This document shows positions 22,524 to 31,813 of a stretch of DNA of 64,000 bases, one piece after another. Made by a program: the position numbers and the translations under genes. The stretch covers positions 310,001 to 374,000 of the forward strand of contig JAFEBI010000011.1 of assembly GCA_018242725.1 (NCBI GenBank), written 5' to 3'. The notes under the pieces are model-generated. The model was not told where the DNA came from and ran no database searches. It saw only the letters and a program-made list of their open reading frames with translations. The number at the start of each line of letters is the position of its first letter. Position 1 is the stretch's first letter. Source of the DNA: Nitrospira sp. (GTDB taxonomy: Bacteria > Nitrospirota > Nitrospiria > Nitrospirales > Nitrospiraceae).

Positions 22524-22799
22524 ATGACACTCTTAACAATTTTTGAGGCAGCGAAGTTTTTGAGGCTGACAAAACGGACCCTCTATCAGCGTGTCGATAT
22601 CCCTCGGGTTCGCTATGGGCATCGTGTCATGTTTGTCAAAGAAGATCTTGAAAATTGGGTCAGAAGCTTATGTGAGGGCGGCGTGGTGAAAGACCTCCAT
22701 GAGCAAGGAAGATTGCCGAAGCCCGTTGACGGCAGACCTGGCAAGGTCTACCATCGGAACCCTTTGTTTGTGTTGCCTCGTCAGAAAGGCCTGCGATGA
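22524..22799 (+). CDS. Excisionase-like MerR/AlpA-type helix-turn-helix protein
   Basis: A 91-residue DNA-binding protein. The N-terminal half has the winged-helix layout of excisionases and AlpA-like regulators: LTIFEAAKFLRLTKRTLYQ, then a basic RVRYGHRVMFVKEDLENWV. The tail is basic and carries no other domain. The ATG at 22524 follows a G-rich GGGGGAA; an in-frame GTG at 22512 is an alternative. Its stop overlaps the integrase start (ATGA at 22796-22799), so the two are translationally coupled. The likely role is direction control of the adjacent site-specific recombinase and possibly repression of the pair. Confidence 0.75.
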   Translation: MTLLTIFEAAKFLRLTKRTLYQRVDIPRVRYGHRVMFVKEDLENWVRSLCEGGVVKDLHEQGRLPKPVDGRPGKVYHRNPLFVLPRQKGLR

Positions 22800-24028
22800 A
22801 TATTCAGCGCATTAATACTCCCAAGGGAACACGATCGATTCTGACCTATTGGTATCGTGGAAGGCGCTATCGACCGGTCCTTGGGTATAACTTGACGCTC
22901 GATCGTGAACGAGAGAGTGCGCTCGAAATCATGACTGCGATTCATACGAATTCATTGGAGCCGGAAAGAAAGAAAGCGCCGATCCCTCTTGCTGGCCAGC
23001 CTTCAACGTTGACGTTTGCTGAGTTTGTCCCCATCTACCTGCAATATCTCAAAGCCAAGCGGCCGAAGAATGATGGGCGAAACCAAACCGTTCTGACGCA
23101 CCATCTTATTCCGCATTTTGGCGACAAGAAGCTCTCGGATATCCGCCTTGAAGATGGATTGGCCTTTCTGGAAAAGCGTCGCTCTGTCCTGATCGGTCCG
23201 GACAATAAGAAACGACATGTGGCTCCAGGAACGATTGAGCGAGAGTGTGCGGCCCTGATGGCCGTGCTGAATTTAGCCGTTGATATGGACCATCTGGATA
23301 AGAATCGGCTCAAGCGCTTGCCGGTGCCTGAATATGTGAAGCGCGAGCGGATTGTTGAAGGCTGGGAGCTGCTCAAAATCCGTGATGCCGCCTCACCGAA
23401 CGTGTGGCGGCTTGCGATGGCCGCGCTGCAGATCGGCCTTCGGGAGAACAAGCTGATCGAGATCCATGAAGAGTGGCTGATGCAACGAGGAGACGGCTGG
23501 TGGGTGGTTCCCTCCCCAGGCCAAACAAAAATCAAAGGGGTCCCTAAAATGGTTCCCCTGAATGGTCTGGCCTACGAGGCGTTGTTCGGAAAAACTCCAC
23601 GAATCGGTGGCCGATTTTTCCATCACTGGAAAGACGGGAATTCCTTCAAGCATACCTGGATGAGAACCTGTGAGCGGGCAGGGGTGCACGATCTGCATTT
23701 CCACGATCTTCGCCATACCTTCACGACTTGGCTCACACAATGTGGCGTGGATTACGCTGTGATCCAGACGTTAAAAGGTGAACCGCTGCCTGGTTCAGCG
23801 AAGTACTACATTCACAATTGGAACGCGCGATTGCGGGATGCAGTGACACGGCTGGAAGCATTTACGAAGGCAGTTCTCAGCGGGAAAAACGATGTTCAGG
23901 TGCCAGTTACTGCCACTTGGGTGCCACTTTCCAGTGGGTCAGAATCTGTAAGTATGCGGAATGTGGTGCCGAGGGACAGAATCGAACTGTCGACACCAGC
24001 CTTTTCAGGGCTGTGCTCTGCCAACTGA
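22796..24028 (+). CDS. Tyrosine-type site-specific recombinase (integrase) whose 3' end lies inside tRNA-Phe
   Basis: A 410-residue phage-type integrase. It has an N-terminal SAM-like DNA-binding region (FAEFVPIYLQYLK, ~78) and a catalytic part with the first Arg in GLRENKL (~223), HDLRHTF (~305) and the nucleophile Tyr in AKYYIHNW (~342). The usual R...HxxR...Y set is therefore present. The last ~21 codons (ending ELSTPAFSGLCSAN) are read antisense through a tRNA-Phe gene, and the stop codon lies inside it. This arrangement is typical of an island that integrates into the 3' part of a tRNA gene and places its integrase next to the junction. The element would extend leftwards from here. No second copy of the attachment core was seen to the left within this window. 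Confidence 0.88.
   Translation: MNIQRINTPKGTRSILTYWYRGRRYRPVLGYNLTLDRERESALEIMTAIHTNSLEPERKKAPIPLAGQPSTLTFAEFVPIYLQYLKAKRPKNDGRNQTVLTHHLIPHFGDKKLSDIRLEDGLAFLEKRRSVLIGPDNKKRHVAPGTIERECAALMAVLNLAVDMDHLDKNRLKRLPVPEYVKRERIVEGWELLKIRDAASPNVWRLAMAALQIGLRENKLIEIHEEWLMQRGDGWWVVPSPGQTKIKGVPKMVPLNGLAYEALFGKTPRIGGRFFHHWKDGNSFKHTWMRTCERAGVHDLHFHDLRHTFTTWLTQCGVDYAVIQTLKGEPLPGSAKYYIHNWNARLRDAVTRLEAFTKAVLSGKNDVQVPVTATWVPLSSGSESVSMRNVVPRDRIELSTPAFSGLCSAN
23964..24000. other. Candidate integration site (att) in the 3' part of tRNA-Phe
   Basis: The integrase coding sequence runs directly into the 3' half of tRNA-Phe, so the crossover core should lie within the tRNA 3' end and T-arm. Coordinates are approximate because the matching distal copy was not found in this window. 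Confidence 0.5.
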
Positions 24029-24039
24029 GCTACCTCGGC
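23964..24039 (-). tRNA. tRNA-Phe (anticodon GAA)
   Basis: Read on the minus strand this is a full 76-nt cloverleaf with encoded CCA. Acceptor GCCGAGG pairs with CCTCGGC followed by A and CCA. The D arm is GCTC/GAGC. The anticodon stem CAGCC/GGCTG encloses a 7-base loop CTGAAAA with anticodon GAA. The T arm GACAG/CTGTC encloses TTCGATT. The gene is intact, and its 3' end is occupied by the oppositely oriented integrase gene, marking it as the likely chromosomal target of the island. Confidence 0.95.
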
Positions 24040-25047: not shown

Positions 25048-25731
25048 TTAGGCAGGAGTGACTTGAAGTTGATGAGCGTGGACCATGAGTTTTTGGCGAT
25101 TCGGGACACCTACCTTGTCGAAGATGCTCGTGAGATGATGTCGGACCGTACTATCCGAAATAGATAACTGGTGGGCAATGTCTTTGTTAGACAGCCCTTG
25201 CTCAACCAGATTAATTACCTCGCGTTCGCGCTCCGTCAGTGCATCAGGCCAACCTGGTTGCCGTAGGATCGGTTTTGTCGGCACCTCGAAAGGTATTGGG
25301 AGCTCTTGATAGGTTACCGTATGGTCTCCAGTGCCGGGAGAACGGCGTGATGAAGGGCAGAGCGCCTGGATCGCGGCAATGATGACTGTGGGGGGGTGAA
25401 TCTTTAGGATCACTCCGTCGATGCCGTATTCAAGCGCCTCGCGTACGGGATCCTTTTGTTCAAACCCGCTCAATAGCATCACCTTGCTGTGTGGAATGGA
25501 GTCCCGAAGTTGTTTGATCCCATCTATGGCATCTCGCTCGGTTTCTGTATCGATGATGATGACATCAGGCTGATAATCGGCAATGGCTTCAGGGGCCGCG
25601 AGGCGTTGAATAGGTGAGCCGACGATTCGGAATGTGTGGGTGCTCTCGAGAATGGTCTGCAAGCCTATCCAGATAAGAGACTGGCCGCTGATAATGGCGA
25701 CCTTCGTGAATGAACCAGCGTTCACGGCCAT
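25048..25731 (-). CDS. LuxR/NarL-type response regulator
   Basis: A 227-residue regulator. Residues ~8-125 form a receiver-like domain with VAIISGQSLIWIGLQ and a probable phospho-acceptor Asp in DVIIIDTET (~61), plus LLSGFEQKD and a Lys in GVILKIH. Residues ~160-225 are a GerE/LuxR helix-turn-helix (LTEREREVINLVEQGLSNKD, then STVRHHLTSIF). The acidic pocket at the N terminus looks reduced (no DD pair after the first strand), so phosphorylation may be atypical. The gene is divergent from the exopolysaccharide locus across an 860-base A+T-rich region with a tandem repeat array. It is the best candidate for the locus regulator. No histidine kinase is adjacent. Confidence 0.85.
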   Translation of the reverse strand: MAVNAGSFTKVAIISGQSLIWIGLQTILESTHTFRIVGSPIQRLAAPEAIADYQPDVIIIDTETERDAIDGIKQLRDSIPHSKVMLLSGFEQKDPVREALEYGIDGVILKIHPPTVIIAAIQALCPSSRRSPGTGDHTVTYQELPIPFEVPTKPILRQPGWPDALTEREREVINLVEQGLSNKDIAHQLSISDSTVRHHLTSIFDKVGVPNRQKLMVHAHQLQVTPA

Positions 25732-26085
25732 GATTTATGTTCCTTCCGACCTTAATTCAAGCGCGTGACATGATCTTACGGATCTAGATTAAATACGTAT
25801 GTTAATGTTGTAAAAAACATGCAGGTGGCATTAGCTGCTGGTTGGCATTGACAAGTTGTTGAGAAAACGTTGAGACGCTAGCTAAAAACTGCCTTGCTCT
25901 GTCCGTTTGCAGAGCTGCAATATATGAAGCATCTGCCGGTGAAGCGAACTGGGAACTCTGTGACCGTTGACTTGTTATGGCACGTGATCCGCAGCTAATC
26001 GAACCCTCATTCGCGCTTCTTACTTTGTCACCAAGAGCTAGCGACGAGCTATTTGGCCTTGTATCATAATGCCTGCCAGGTAGCC

Positions 26086-26186
26086 AGATCTAAATTACTA
26101 GATAATCAGATCAAAATTACCAGATAACCAAATCTAAGTTACCATATAGCCATATCTAAATTACGTACAGACGGATCTAGTTAAAT
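26086..26186 (+). repeat. Imperfect 22-bp direct repeat array, about 4.5 copies
   Basis: Copies begin at 26086, 26108, 26130 and 26152, exactly 22 bases apart, with a partial fifth near 26173. The conserved core is AGATCTAAATTAC (variants AGATCAAAATTAC, AAATCTAAGTTAC, ATATCTAAATTAC), followed by a less conserved AGATAACC-like part. A 22-bp period is about two helical turns, so bound proteins would line up on one face of the DNA. This looks like an array of regulator-binding sites. Confidence 0.8.
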
Positions 26187-26303
26187 ATTTTCTCGATAAG
26201 TATTTGAATTTAAAAACGAAAATATTCAAATGTTCAATTGAAGACGATCGGCAATATCAGAAGTCGAGAGTGGCATGTGTTAAAAGTGTTTCACAATGAA
26301 ACA

Positions 26304-26325
26304 GTTATTGACGTATAGCAATAAC
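26304..26325. promoter_or_regulatory. Perfect inverted repeat GTTATTG-N8-CAATAAC, possible operator
   Basis: Two 7-bp arms with perfect dyad symmetry and an 8-base spacer lie about 270 bases before the antiterminator gene, in the A+T-rich leader of the exopolysaccharide locus. It could be a regulator site or a small RNA hairpin; nothing else supports either reading. Confidence 0.35.
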
Positions 26326-26593
26326 GTTCTGATCCAATTTCAGGTGATAGAAGTCCTTGTTTCTTCAGGTTTAGAGAGTCGAGTGAGCAGATGAAAAGAT
26401 CTCCTCCATCCCATGTGTGTTAGTTGTCTCCCACCGCTCAGGTAGTCGTTGGCTTATCAGACAAACGTGCCGGTGAGAAGTATGTGATCGCACATAAACC
26501 AGACATATGTCCGATGGCCATGAGGCAGATGCCCCTGTATAGCTGTTCTTTAAGTTGGTGGTTGGGGATGGATGGGACTCACAGGGCGAAGCT

Positions 26594-27145
26594 ATGTCCG
26601 CGTTTAATTCGCGACAGGAATCGATGAAACAAGAAGAAGGGCTCATCCCAAGGGACGAGTCTCTCTGGTATGCCCTTCAAACTCGCGCTCGTCATGAAAA
26701 GCAGGTTCGCGACCGGTTGGCGGCAGCTGGGATGAAGCCATTGTTGCCGTTGAGTCGGCAATACCGTCAGTGGTCTGATCGGAAAATGTTGACGACCGTG
26801 CCTCTCTTCGGCGGGTACTGTTTTGCAAATTTTTCAGTAACCAGGATCCGGAACGTCCTTCAGATTCCCGGTGTGGCCAGAATAGTTGGAACCACAAAAC
26901 CAGAGCCCATCCTTGATGAAGAAATTGCTGCTTTCCAGCGGCTCTCCTGTGTCGATCGGATTGTAGAACCTTGTGACTACCTGATTGAAGGTGCATGGGT
27001 AGAAGTTGTGCGAGGGCCGCTCACAGGACTTCGTGGCCAATTTGTCAGACCAAATAAGCATCATGGGTTGGTGATTCGTGCCACACTCATTCAGCAAGCA
27101 GCATTCGTTCACATTAAGGCTGATGAGGTTGTGTCGATGCGGTGA
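26594..27145 (+). CDS. NusG/RfaH/UpxY-like transcription antitermination protein
   Basis: A 183-residue protein with a NusG-type N-terminal domain (WYALQTRARHEKQVRDRLAA, then LFGGYCFANF and IPGVARIVGT) and a C-terminal KOW-like segment (EGAWVEVVRGPLTGLRGQFV). Specialised NusG paralogues of this kind (RfaH, UpxY, LoaP) ride with RNA polymerase and allow read-through of long polysaccharide or secondary-metabolite operons. It is the first + strand gene of a locus of more than 37 kb, the position expected for that role. Start choice is uncertain: the ATG at 26594 has AGGG about 7 bases upstream and the ATG at 26624 has AGGAA close by. Confidence 0.85.
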   Translation: MSAFNSRQESMKQEEGLIPRDESLWYALQTRARHEKQVRDRLAAAGMKPLLPLSRQYRQWSDRKMLTTVPLFGGYCFANFSVTRIRNVLQIPGVARIVGTTKPEPILDEEIAAFQRLSCVDRIVEPCDYLIEGAWVEVVRGPLTGLRGQFVRPNKHHGLVIRATLIQQAAFVHIKADEVVSMR

Positions 27146-27206: not shown

Positions 27207-27491
27207 ATGGCCAAGTGCGCATTGACTCGAGAGCAGAAGAAGGAAGCACTACTCAAGCTTGATGCCGGGTGCAAGGCCAGAGATGTCTCTCGTGAGCATG
27301 GTGTATCTGTGCGGACGCTGTATCGGTGGCGTGCGAATGTGATGCGGAGCCGGCAACGCGTCGATGGTAATGAGCGGTTGCGGACCCTGGAAATCGAACA
27401 TCGACAATTACGACAGCGATTTGCCGAACTGACGCTTGATTACGCCACGCTCAGGGCGGCATTGATGAAAGATGTGAAAGGAGACTGTTAA
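27207..27491 (+). CDS. Orphan IS3-type OrfA-like helix-turn-helix protein
   Basis: A 94-residue protein with an N-terminal transposase-OrfA/HTH_Tnp_1 helix-turn-helix (EQKKEALLKLDAGCKARDVS, then SVRTLYRWRANV) and a C-terminal coiled coil with spaced leucines (LRTLEIEHRQLRQRFAELTL). OrfA of IS3 elements normally precedes a DDE integrase OrfB by frameshift; here no OrfB, no terminal repeats and no remnant follow. The gene is intact and lies tightly between the antiterminator and the Wza-like gene (3-base gap to the latter). It may be a domesticated regulator, or simply a remnant that has stayed open. Confidence 0.7.
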   Translation: MAKCALTREQKKEALLKLDAGCKARDVSREHGVSVRTLYRWRANVMRSRQRVDGNERLRTLEIEHRQLRQRFAELTLDYATLRAALMKDVKGDC

Positions 27492-27494
27492 CGT

Positions 27495-28169
27495 ATGAAA
27501 ATTGCGGATGGGATGTCTCGCATGCAAGGAAACGTCATTGAGGTTATGAAGATTGTCGGGCATTTGGTTATCCTCGTGACGGTCTTGGGGCTTAGTGCTT
27601 GTGCCGTATCACTGCCATCGCCTGATGTTGTTGCTGAAGCCAATAGTGCAACCATGAAACAATTTCTTCTAGGGCCTGAGGATATCCTCGAAATTGCGGT
27701 GTGGAAGAGCGAAGAGCTTACACAAAAAGAGGTGGTCATCAGACCAGATGGGAAGATTGGTATTCCCTTGATTGGAGATGTGGATGCCAGCGGTCGGACG
27801 GCCGATGAGCTTGCGAGTCATATCGCCGGGCTGCTCAAGAAGTTTAAAGAAAATCCGTCAGTCTCGGTGAAGGTCCGGGAGGTCAATAGCTACTATGTGT
27901 ATGTCTTGGGAGATGTGGTAAAGCCGGGCAAGTATCAGCTGAAGTCTCAGGCAACTGTGTTGCAAGCTCTCGCGATGGCAGGGGGGTTCACACTCTATGC
28001 AGCAAAGAACAAGATGCAAGTCCGGCGCACGGTCGTTGGTCAGGATGATGTCTCCAAAGATTTCACGATTCCTGCCCGGTATGATGACTTGATGTCAGGA
28101 AATGGAGCTATAAAAGACTTTGTCCTGAAGACCGGAGACCTCGTTGTGGTACCGACCAGAGCGTGGTAA
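27495..28169 (+). CDS. Wza-type polysaccharide export lipoprotein (Poly_export/SLBB)
   Basis: A 224-residue outer-membrane export protein. A hydrophobic stretch ends in the lipobox LSAC (Cys 36), which predicts a lipoprotein. The polysaccharide-export domain follows (LLGPEDILEIAVWKSEELTQ, then VVIRPDGKIGIPLIGDV), and an SLBB-type ligand-binding fold (YVLGDVVKPGKYQL, ~140). It would form the periplasm-to-outside channel for the polymer with the Wzc-type kinase encoded two genes downstream. The ATG at 27495 has GGAGA 10 bases upstream; in-frame ATGs at 27513 and 27546 would give a shorter signal sequence. Confidence 0.88.
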   Translation: MKIADGMSRMQGNVIEVMKIVGHLVILVTVLGLSACAVSLPSPDVVAEANSATMKQFLLGPEDILEIAVWKSEELTQKEVVIRPDGKIGIPLIGDVDASGRTADELASHIAGLLKKFKENPSVSVKVREVNSYYVYVLGDVVKPGKYQLKSQATVLQALAMAGGFTLYAAKNKMQVRRTVVGQDDVSKDFTIPARYDDLMSGNGAIKDFVLKTGDLVVVPTRAW

Positions 28170-28175
28170 CGAGGC

Positions 28176-29483
28176 ATGGGATGGACACGAGACGCGCTCA
28201 AAAGTTGCCTCACTCTGGCTACTGTCTGTGGAATGGTGATGGAGAGTTTCTCTCTGGCGTATGCGCAATACTCCTCCGTACCAGGGGCCGAGACGCAAAT
28301 GATCGCGGGACCTGAGGGAAGAACGACGGGTGAATCAGCGACGACAATTATTCCATCGCTTCGATTGGCCGAGCGGTACGATAGCAACGTCTTTTTTGTG
28401 AAAGGACAGAGTCTTGAAGACTACGTGACGACGGTTTCGCCTCAGCTAACTGCAACTCATCAAAATCCATGGGTGGAGATGAGGGTCAGAGGAGGACTGA
28501 CGGGTGAAGTCTATGCCAAGAACCCTGGGCTGAATTATGTGGGTGCGAATGGGATGGTCGATCTCAAATTAGATGGTGCAATGAATGCATTGTTACCTGG
28601 GTTGGGGTTGCATATTTCCAACGGTATATTTTACACACCACAGCCACCGGCATTTGCCGCCCCAGCGAGCGGGAATCAAATCTCCGACACGTTTGTGCAG
28701 GGGCTTCAGGCCAGACGTGCGAATTCTTTTTCGAACATGGCCAGCGTAGAGGCATCGTATTTCTTTCTTCCCCATGTAGGTGTTTCCTCAACGTATACGG
28801 ATAGTCGATTGCGATTCGGAAAAGCATTTTCTACGCCAACGGGACTCGTGCAAAGAGGGGAGTTTATCAATACGAATTTTCAGACGTTGACCTCAGGGTT
28901 CATTGTGAGACCGTCGCCGGCTGATACGATCTCGCTTTCTCATCAGTACAGAAAAGCAACCTTTTCTGATCCTGATAGACCAGATAGAGGTTTCTCGACC
29001 CAAGGAGCGATTGCGAGCTGGTCGAAATCCATTACTCCGGAGCTAAAGATGATCGGCAATGGAGGCTTTTCCGTGTTGAGCCAACGTAGCGGCATATACC
29101 CAGTAGGTGGGGCGTCATTGGAGTGGCAGGGGACGTATACGACTGTACGAGTGTCCTATTCGAGGGCCATCAGCCCCAGCTTTTTGTTTGTATCCGGAGC
29201 GTTGGTAAACGAAGTTGTGACAGGGGCGGTGACACGTCAGATGGCTGAGCCTTTCACATTGTCGCTGAGTGCAAACTATGCCATCAATCGCTCCATACCG
29301 GATAGTTCGACTGTGCGGTTTGAGTCCTATTCGGTGACGCCGAGTGTTACCTATAAAATCGGACCGAGTCTCACGGCGTCGCTCAGCTACACGCATAGCG
29401 AGTTTCAACGAGTATTCTCGGGACAAGCCATCGAGTTTAACCGAAATATGGTCATGCTTAATTTGCTGGCCGAATGGAGATGA
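28176..29483 (+). CDS. Outer-membrane beta-barrel protein of the exopolysaccharide locus
   Basis: A 435-residue protein with a Sec signal peptide (hydrophobic core ~9-25, likely cleavage after AYA at ~30). The mature part is rich in alternating hydrophobic/polar strands with aromatic ends (SASYFFLPHVG-like and VTYKIGPSLTASLSYTH patterns) and ends with a strand LNLLAEWR. This suits a transmembrane beta-barrel porin-like protein of the kind found next to wza and wzc genes in exosortase-type and related polysaccharide clusters. It lies 6 bases after the export lipoprotein gene, and its end overlaps the first possible ATG (29474) of the kinase gene. A role in polymer passage or secretion is inferred from context. 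Confidence 0.7.
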   Translation: MGWTRDALKSCLTLATVCGMVMESFSLAYAQYSSVPGAETQMIAGPEGRTTGESATTIIPSLRLAERYDSNVFFVKGQSLEDYVTTVSPQLTATHQNPWVEMRVRGGLTGEVYAKNPGLNYVGANGMVDLKLDGAMNALLPGLGLHISNGIFYTPQPPAFAAPASGNQISDTFVQGLQARRANSFSNMASVEASYFFLPHVGVSSTYTDSRLRFGKAFSTPTGLVQRGEFINTNFQTLTSGFIVRPSPADTISLSHQYRKATFSDPDRPDRGFSTQGAIASWSKSITPELKMIGNGGFSVLSQRSGIYPVGGASLEWQGTYTTVRVSYSRAISPSFLFVSGALVNEVVTGAVTRQMAEPFTLSLSANYAINRSIPDSSTVRFESYSVTPSVTYKIGPSLTASLSYTHSEFQRVFSGQAIEFNRNMVMLNLLAEWR

Positions 29484-29485
29484 GT

Positions 29486-31813
29486 ATGTACAAAGCCATC
29501 CAACCTGCGAGATCGGGTGCACAGGCTGAACCGATTTCCGTGAAGATGCAGGAATATTGGGGAATCATCGTTCGAAGGAAATGGGTGGTGTTAGCCTCCA
29601 TTCTTGCTGGCATTGCCGTTGGCGTGGGGCTTTGCCTCGTACTACCGAAGAGTTATCGTTCGAGCACAGAAATTCTGATTGAGAATCAAAAGATTCCCGA
29701 TGAGTATGTCAAAGGTATTGGGGTGGGTAACATTGAAGCGCGACTTGTGATGATTCAGCAACAGGTGATGAGTCGTGGACTTCTCAGCCAAATTCTCGAG
29801 GAGCACAGCTTGTATGAAGGGCTCATTCAACGTGACGGCCTTGAATCAGCTATTGAGAAATTGCGTAAGGGTATCAAGGTAGAGATGGTTCGATCCCCAG
29901 ACCTCAGAAAGCAGACAGTTGAGGCGGTAAACATATCCTTTGCGGATGAAAATCCGATGACGGCCATGAAGGTGACCGCAAAGTTGGCGTCATTGTTCAT
30001 TGAGGAGAATCTCAAGAATAAAGAACAGCTTGTGACAGGTGTTTCCGCCTTTCTGGAGCAAGAGTTGGAAGATGCCAAGAAGGCCTTGGAAGGGCAAGAG
30101 CAGGCCATTAGTCAGTACAAAACGAAGTATGCGGGACTTCTGCCTGAACAGATTGAAAGCAATCTGAGAGCGCTCGATCGCCTTCAGATGGAATTGAGTG
30201 CGGCGACTGATTTGCTTCATTCTCGGACCGACAAGTTAAGTTCGCTGGAACGGTCGATTGCTGAATATCAGGCCAGTGTCGCGCCAGGTGTGGAATCGGA
30301 TGGCCCTAAGTTTATTCGAAAAGATCTCGATCCTCTGATCACGAGGTTGCGTCAACTTGAGCAACGACTGACCACGCTCCGAGCCGAATGGAAGGAGACT
30401 TATCCCGACATCACGGACACAAAGCAGGAAATCCTCAGTTTAAAAGAACAACTCGGTGAAAAGTACGGAACCTCGTTCGTGGATGATGCTGCCGTGGTGA
30501 ATCAGGAAAGTGAGCCGACGGGACGGAAGGACTTACCTCCGGACTTCTATATCTATCTCAGGGAACTGAAGACACAGCGCAATGATCTGCTGACGGAGCT
30601 TTCCTCCCTCAAGAATCGCCGCGAGAGACTGTTGCAGCTTATTAAGGAAACGGAGCGACGTGTTGAGCAGACGCCAGTACGTGAACAAGAGCTCATGATT
30701 CTTGTCCGAGACTATGAAAATAGGCGAAAAAACTATCAAGCATTGCTGGATAAACGACTCAATGCCCACGTGGCCGTCAATATGGAGAAGCGACAGAAAG
30801 GAGAGCAGTTTCGGATCCTAGACCCAGCAAATCTTCCCAGTAAACCAGAGAGCCCCAATCATCTGCAGATTATGATGGCAGGGTTGTTGGGTGGATGTGG
30901 GTTGGGTACCGTGTTAGCGTTTGGACTTGACCATGTTAATCCGACGTTTCGGCGTCGGGAGGATCTGGAGCAGATTCCTGGCGTACGGGTGTTGGCGACG
31001 GTACCGTTGTTCACGGCAACGTCTGACCATGTTCCGGTGAAGAGACGTGCCGAACTATCGGCAAGCAAGAACGATAGTGTGGTTCGTACGCCCTCCACTA
31101 AATCTGTTCCACACGGGGGTCTGGTTGCCAAGTGGCAACCAGGCTCAATTGCGGCCGAGCAATATCGTATGGCTGCGACGAGAATGGTCCTGTCGATCGA
31201 GAAACGTCTGTCAACTGTCATTGAAATCACCAGTGCGTTGGAAGGTGAAGGCAAGACAACAACGGTTGTAAATTTGGGATATACGATCGCTCGGGACCTT
31301 GGAAGACAAACACTACTGATCGACTGTGATTTTCGACGCCCCGCACTTCACCATTATGTCAGTCTATCGGCCCGTGCGGGACTGTTGGATCTGTTGGATG
31401 GAGGAGCAGCTATCGAGGAGTGTGTCTCGATGGTCGACGAAGCCGCTTGTTCCATTATGACGGTGGGTCGGTCAAGAGGCGAGTTGAATGAGTTGGGGAG
31501 AATCGAGCAGCTCAGGGAGCTCTTGCCAGAGTTACGTACCCGATTTCAGTATATCATCATCAATACTCCCCCGGTCCTGGCCAGTGCCACAATGGGGAGT
31601 CTGGTGAGTTTGGCCGATGAGGTGGTGATGGTCATCAAAGCGGGCTCGTCCCCGCAGCACGTCGTACAGAAAGCGTTTGCACTACTTGGACTGACTGGGG
31701 AGAAGTACGCTGTGCTGAACGGAGTCGATGAGCATAGCCTTCCCCACTACTTGTATGGGTACAGCATGCCGTATGGTGGCGACCCAGCAGTTGAAGCGAC
31801 GGTGGTCAGATAG
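29486..31813 (+). CDS. Wzc-type chain-length determinant / bacterial tyrosine autokinase
   Basis: A 775-residue inner-membrane protein. A Wzz domain begins near residue 10 with a transmembrane helix (VVLASILAGIAVGVGLCLVL). A long periplasmic coiled coil follows (~170-420), then a GNVR-type segment and a second helix (~470). The cytoplasmic kinase part has a Walker A SALEGEGKTTT (~582) and Walker A' LLIDCDFRRP (~610). The C terminus has a small tyrosine cluster (YLYGYSMPY), the usual autophosphorylation tail. It controls polymer length and export together with the Wza-like lipoprotein. I prefer the ATG at 29486 because GGAG lies 6 bases before it; ATGs at 29474 and 29480 are in frame but lack their own RBS. 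Confidence 0.88.
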   Translation: MYKAIQPARSGAQAEPISVKMQEYWGIIVRRKWVVLASILAGIAVGVGLCLVLPKSYRSSTEILIENQKIPDEYVKGIGVGNIEARLVMIQQQVMSRGLLSQILEEHSLYEGLIQRDGLESAIEKLRKGIKVEMVRSPDLRKQTVEAVNISFADENPMTAMKVTAKLASLFIEENLKNKEQLVTGVSAFLEQELEDAKKALEGQEQAISQYKTKYAGLLPEQIESNLRALDRLQMELSAATDLLHSRTDKLSSLERSIAEYQASVAPGVESDGPKFIRKDLDPLITRLRQLEQRLTTLRAEWKETYPDITDTKQEILSLKEQLGEKYGTSFVDDAAVVNQESEPTGRKDLPPDFYIYLRELKTQRNDLLTELSSLKNRRERLLQLIKETERRVEQTPVREQELMILVRDYENRRKNYQALLDKRLNAHVAVNMEKRQKGEQFRILDPANLPSKPESPNHLQIMMAGLLGGCGLGTVLAFGLDHVNPTFRRREDLEQIPGVRVLATVPLFTATSDHVPVKRRAELSASKNDSVVRTPSTKSVPHGGLVAKWQPGSIAAEQYRMAATRMVLSIEKRLSTVIEITSALEGEGKTTTVVNLGYTIARDLGRQTLLIDCDFRRPALHHYVSLSARAGLLDLLDGGAAIEECVSMVDEAACSIMTVGRSRGELNELGRIEQLRELLPELRTRFQYIIINTPPVLASATMGSLVSLADEVVMVIKAGSSPQHVVQKAFALLGLTGEKYAVLNGVDEHSLPHYLYGYSMPYGGDPAVEATVVR

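Follow-up and report, generated by a model that had tools for sequence, protein, structure and literature searches.

A 22-bp tandem repeat array, probably a local operator, in the leader between a divergent luxR gene and an exopolysaccharide operon of Nitrospira

The window (the whole 64,000-nucleotide stretch of Nitrospira sp. DNA analysed here) contains a Nitrospira exopolysaccharide (EPS) operon with a divergent NarL-type luxR gene, and the leader between them carries four tandem 22-bp units and a partial fifth. The array is probably a tandemly amplified local cis-regulatory operator that controls both promoters. We regard it as a real, clade-specific local operator array, ordinary in kind and, as far as the literature searched goes, unstudied in this lineage; the search turned up no work on LuxR/NusG in the control of Nitrospira exopolysaccharide. 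The features of the locus are:

25048–25731, minus strand: divergent NarL/FixJ-type LuxR regulator, with a receiver lacking the acidic pair and a GerE domain (domain profiles, alignment).
25778–25799, plus strand: luxR-proximal sister site ACGGATCTAGATTAAATACGTA (match to the array end, recurrence in genomes with the luxR ortholog).
26076–26163, plus strand: four 22-bp tandem units, consensus CYAGATAGCCAGATCTAAATTA, with a GAT-N6-ATC dyad core in each (Tandem Repeats Finder, shuffles).
26164–26185, plus strand: partial fifth unit, half-site GGATCTA plus GTTAAA, in phase with the array.
26574–26595, plus strand: near-invariant GGGACTCACRGGGCGAAGCTRT directly before the antiterminator gene, an ops-like candidate.
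26594–27145, plus strand: NusG paralog, nearest to UpxY/RfaH-type antiterminators (UpxY model 94 bits, cut-off 100).
27207–27491, plus strand: small IS3-OrfA-like HTH protein, conserved in the operon, a rival candidate for array binding (profile and locus comparison).
27495–31813, plus strand: first EPS genes, encoding a polysaccharide export protein, an outer-membrane beta-barrel and a chain-length determinant/tyrosine autokinase (XrtA/PEP-CTERM-type families).

Tandem Repeats Finder placed the array at 26076–26164 with a period of 22, 4.0 copies and a score of 108. The runner-up in the 64 kb scored 36, so this is the sole strong tandem array of the window. The units are, in order, CCAGGTAGCCAGATCTAAATTA, CTAGATAATCAGATCAAAATTA, CCAGATAACCAAATCTAAGTTA and CCATATAGCCATATCTAAATTA, followed by CGTACAGACGGATCTAGTTAAA, and ATCTA-type words begin at 26087, 26109, 26131, 26153 and 26175, exactly 22 bp apart. 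When self-identity over 66 bp was calculated at lags of 10–60, the leader reached 0.79, compared with at most 0.56 in 1000 dinucleotide shuffles of it (0/1000). The earlier note's description of four copies plus a partial fifth is thus confirmed, as is the A+T richness that it reported (67% in the array vs 58% in the leader). Its placement of the array before the antiterminator gene also stands, with the start of that gene amended from the TTG at 26555 in the ORF list to the likely ATG at 26594. Measured from there, the array extends from about 520 to 410 bp upstream (its end lies ∼410–430 bp from the ATG), and it lies 345–455 bp from luxR.

The consensus contains the short dyad TAGAT-N6-ATCTA, whose 16-bp span would fit the footprint of a dimeric HTH protein. 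The best-kept part of the dyad is the inner GAT-N6-ATC, and the neighbouring AATTAC is likewise conserved. With a spacing of 22 bp the units share about one helix face; no 11-bp sub-period as in pho boxes was seen by eye within the unit.

Pattern searches of the 4.0-Mb genome that contains the window (G000) located the exact core AGATCTAAATTAC only once. The 21-bp unit with up to 3 mismatches gave 4 matches, all inside the array, and the control gave 0. The genome-wide motif search suggested by the earlier note therefore shows a unit restricted to this array, and a genome-wide regulon was rejected. The perfect TAGAT-N6-ATCTA dyad has zero occurrences in the genome because every unit deviates from the consensus. 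Against viral contigs, an exact 15-mer gave 22 single matches, not inspected individually, which were taken as chance. A sigma-70 promoter scan of the leader recognised none from which the position of the array with respect to transcription initiation could be read.

We aligned six orthologous luxR-nusG leaders, namely those of G000, G062, G032 (UW-LDO-01), G011, RBC069 (G100) and G034. In a collection of named genomes, orthologous loci were found in Nitrospira sp. UW-LDO-01, RBC069 and UBA5698. Copy number varies among these relatives, as in a variable-number tandem repeat: G000 and G062 have 4 units each, G032 has at least 3.7 (a lower bound, since its contig ends inside the array in apparent sequencing-adapter sequence), and G011, RBC069 and G034 have 1 each. 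The single site of the last three aligns to the first unit of the array and is one of the five 20-bp blocks with the highest conservation in the leader. The GGATCTA/GACCTA of the partial fifth unit is kept in all complete orthologous leaders. The earlier note held that absence of the array from close relatives with the same operon would count against its reading. The outcome is divided: at least one copy is kept in all six leaders, but it is multiplied in three of them and single in the other three.

Since multiplication is confined to half of the leaders, the tandem copies might have arisen by slippage from one conserved site and be neutral, their number having no effect. The units also diverge almost as quickly as their flank: between G000 and G062 the array is 77% identical, little above the 70% of the luxR-side leader, a margin too small to demonstrate strong purifying selection on each unit. 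Units at the same position in the two genomes differ at 5.0 of 22 positions, the same as units at different positions, and the constraint on individual units is not statistically strong. Against neutrality, two lineages have kept four copies in exact 22-bp phase although the adjacent luxR genes differ at 43% of fourfold sites. The array is also free of indels where the neighbouring 338 bp show 8 gap runs, a weak contrast as only ∼2 would be expected. On this sequence comparison the four units look as if they have been kept in phase since long ago, and we consider neutral slippage rather unlikely. Most parsimoniously, a single ancient site underwent one amplification, either in the shared ancestor of G000, G062 and G032 or with later transfer among these three.

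Identity to G062 jumps to the right of the array (26164–26300), from ∼70–80% on the luxR side to ∼94% on the operon side, and fourfold differences fall from 43% to 11–13%. This suggests a recombination boundary close to the right edge of the array.

A sister sequence, ACGGATCTAGnTTAAATA, sits 50–67 bp before luxR and repeats the end of the array (ACGGATCTAGATTAAATA vs ACGGATCTAGTTAAATA). Its recurrence at the array end was equalled in 0/500 shuffles in G000 and 1/500 in G062. The match is not significant singly in G011, RBC069 and G034; in G011 and G034 the highest-scoring counterpart of the luxR-proximal site again lies within the array site, with a score that alone is non-significant. When a degenerate pattern of the luxR-proximal site was searched in 79 genomes, it occurred at this place in exactly the 6 with the luxR ortholog, with one extra one-mismatch match elsewhere in G032. 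The claim of a regulatory site is accordingly supported by a copy in all six leaders, by uniqueness, by a shared helix face where the site is multiplied and by the sister site before luxR.

The LuxR-type protein is the simplest candidate to bind the array, as the earlier note proposed, and we hold it to be plausible rather than probable. It is the natural choice because it is encoded locally, the site is local and unique, a sister site precedes its own gene, and the dyad looks made for a dimer. The protein has a C-terminal GerE HTH (PF00196, E 3e-18, above the cut-off) and an N-terminal receiver (PF00072, 36.9 bits). The phospho-acceptor D61 is present in 21/21 aligned proteins and the conserved K110 in most, while the acidic pair of the Mg2+ site is missing family-wide (S15-G16 align with the DD of VraR). 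Counting against LuxR are about 15 paralogous loci in the genus with the order luxR, nusG-like gene, HTH gene and export gene. Their LuxR proteins share the recognition helix of the window protein, DSTVRHH[L/M]T.IFDKVGVPNRQKL, and when a 26-bp weight matrix was run across every fetched locus, their leaders yielded no site scoring above control. Many of those leaders have a dyad, TACYnCCYATTnGTAGGG, at the corresponding place. NarL heptamers have the sequence TACYYMT, which this dyad resembles at the sequence level. It has no convincing match in the window-clade leaders, whose array units carry TAGAT-N6-ATCTA. If recognition helices decide, LuxR would bind the NarL-like dyad and not the array.

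One or two NarL-like dyads are present in the paralogous leaders L065, L067 and L059; two copies lie 103 bp apart in G007 and G092 and 26 bp apart in G031. At L012 2175–2209, in G003, two 17-bp tandem copies of TCATGATGCTTCCCTAT stand directly before a paralogous luxR and overlap its start region.

Alternatively, a real operator might serve a different local regulator, such as the IS3-OrfA-like HTH protein of the same operon. With its HTH and a tail like a leucine zipper, the protein resembles those OrfA proteins that attach to the ends of insertion sequences. Its gene, which follows that of the NusG paralog and precedes the export gene, is found in nearly every luxR-linked EPS locus and is missing from most nusG-like loci without luxR. 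The putative recognition segment reads GVSVRTLYRWR in the window clade and mostly GIS.STLYRWR at other loci; in this it parallels the leader sites, which also differ between clades, while the recognition helix of LuxR stays the same. This covariation is a correlation along gene lineages only, and DNA binding by the protein is putative here. Overall, we consider binding by such a regulator unlikely. The protein looks like a domesticated transposase HTH in sequence. The narrower proposal, that a domesticated IS3-OrfA-type transposase HTH protein and not LuxR reads the array, as a repressor or activator of transposase origin whose operators are clade-specific, is improbable. If true, it would make the OrfA-like protein part of a three-regulator module, with LuxR and the NusG paralog, governing Nitrospira EPS operons. 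Beside LuxR, the HTH protein or another local regulator, and copies without function, the remaining probability falls to an operator with an unnamed binder.

Plasmids carry 22-bp iterons, and an integrase gene (22796–24028) beside tRNA-Phe lies in the window; iterons, an integration site, a CRISPR-like array or an RNA-level leader element are nevertheless very improbable, since the array sits in a leader conserved across species, the plasmid collection gave no match, no replication gene occurs among the genes examined around it (luxR, the nusG-like gene, the HTH gene and EPS genes; integrase and transposase fragments lie farther to the left), folding analysis detected no RNA structure on one strand or the other (z +0.62 and +0.36), and Rfam gave no match. 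The lack of an RNA fold and of an Rfam family favours a role at the DNA level.

To return to the local operator: the array, its conservation in single copy, its uniqueness, the sister site and the gene order are observed, and binding by a protein, cooperativity, the identity of that protein and the sign of regulation (activation or repression) are matters of inference. Most likely, a dedicated regulator would recognise a single conserved operator between the two divergent genes. The ancestral state would be a single site, GATAGCCAGATnTAAATTACGT, with GGATCTA ∼20 bp further on, and tandem duplication would have produced four 22-bp units in the lineage of G000, G062 and G032. Bound dimers would lie on one DNA face, able to sit side by side, so that four in-phase units might raise local occupancy and the response may steepen. 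The suggestion in the earlier note that the 22-bp spacing suits cooperative binding agrees with the shared helical face; as a general requirement, cooperative multi-site binding cannot hold, because three of the six orthologous leaders have a single site. The array-binding protein probably uses the sister site too, which would link luxR autoregulation with operon control; the DNA at the two sites, 280–400 bp apart, may come into contact. At its distances from both genes the array is far for a classical activator site of either, unless transcription starts inside the leader or the DNA loops.

The arrangement is like the multi-site promoters of NarL (PDB 1je8), VraR and BvgA, in which a GerE HTH regulator adjoins a region with several short dyads, and the 16-bp dyad span is alike. 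VraR and NarL are among the top full-length structural-sequence matches of the window LuxR. It differs from NarL/FixJ systems in that its receiver lacks the acidic pair and in that the array units are regular 22-bp copies without the TACYYMT dyad of the paralogous leaders. VpsT and CsgD are biofilm regulators of a comparable kind, since here too a LuxR-type regulator with a degenerate receiver adjoins biofilm polysaccharide genes; similarity of the window LuxR to them is restricted to the HTH domain.

Control of exopolysaccharide would shape floc and biofilm formation by nitrite oxidisers in water treatment. The array, the single-copy relatives and the sister site form a natural series (1 vs 4 copies) on how operator multiplication alters regulation, and the array offers a fixed DNA target for finding which of the three locus regulators acts there.

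As with the UpxY, RfaH and LoaP paralogs of polysaccharide operons (PMC7593976), the first gene of the window operon encodes a NusG paralog that presumably serves its own operon, although its UpxY score is slightly below the cut-off. How NusG paralogs encoded within operons are recruited is described as unknown (PMC7593976). The array itself lies well upstream of the gene and does not resemble an ops element. Directly before the gene, GGGACTCACRGGGCGAAGCTRT is nearly invariant across 23 Nitrospira loci and has 2 genome occurrences, each before a nusG-like gene. By analogy, its GC-GAA-GC could form a mini-hairpin resembling the RfaH ops element, and this element is possibly more interesting than the array.

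Two further elements were seen in the leader. GACAAAnGTGCC and the palindrome GACATnTGTC, at 26457–26515, are conserved in both window-clade and paralogous leaders, ∼90–160 bp ahead of the NusG-paralog start. They are probably a core promoter or another operator, and would offer an alternative LuxR site. At 26284–26306, the inverted repeat GTGTTTCA-CAA-TGAAACA is recognisable in 3 further orthologous leaders (G062, G011 and RBC069) and is a possible additional operator. To the left of luxR, at 22796–24039, the tyrosine-recombinase integrase gene stands beside tRNA-Phe, with IS4/5-type transposase fragments beyond it; the integrase gene and these fragments are the remains of an integrated element.
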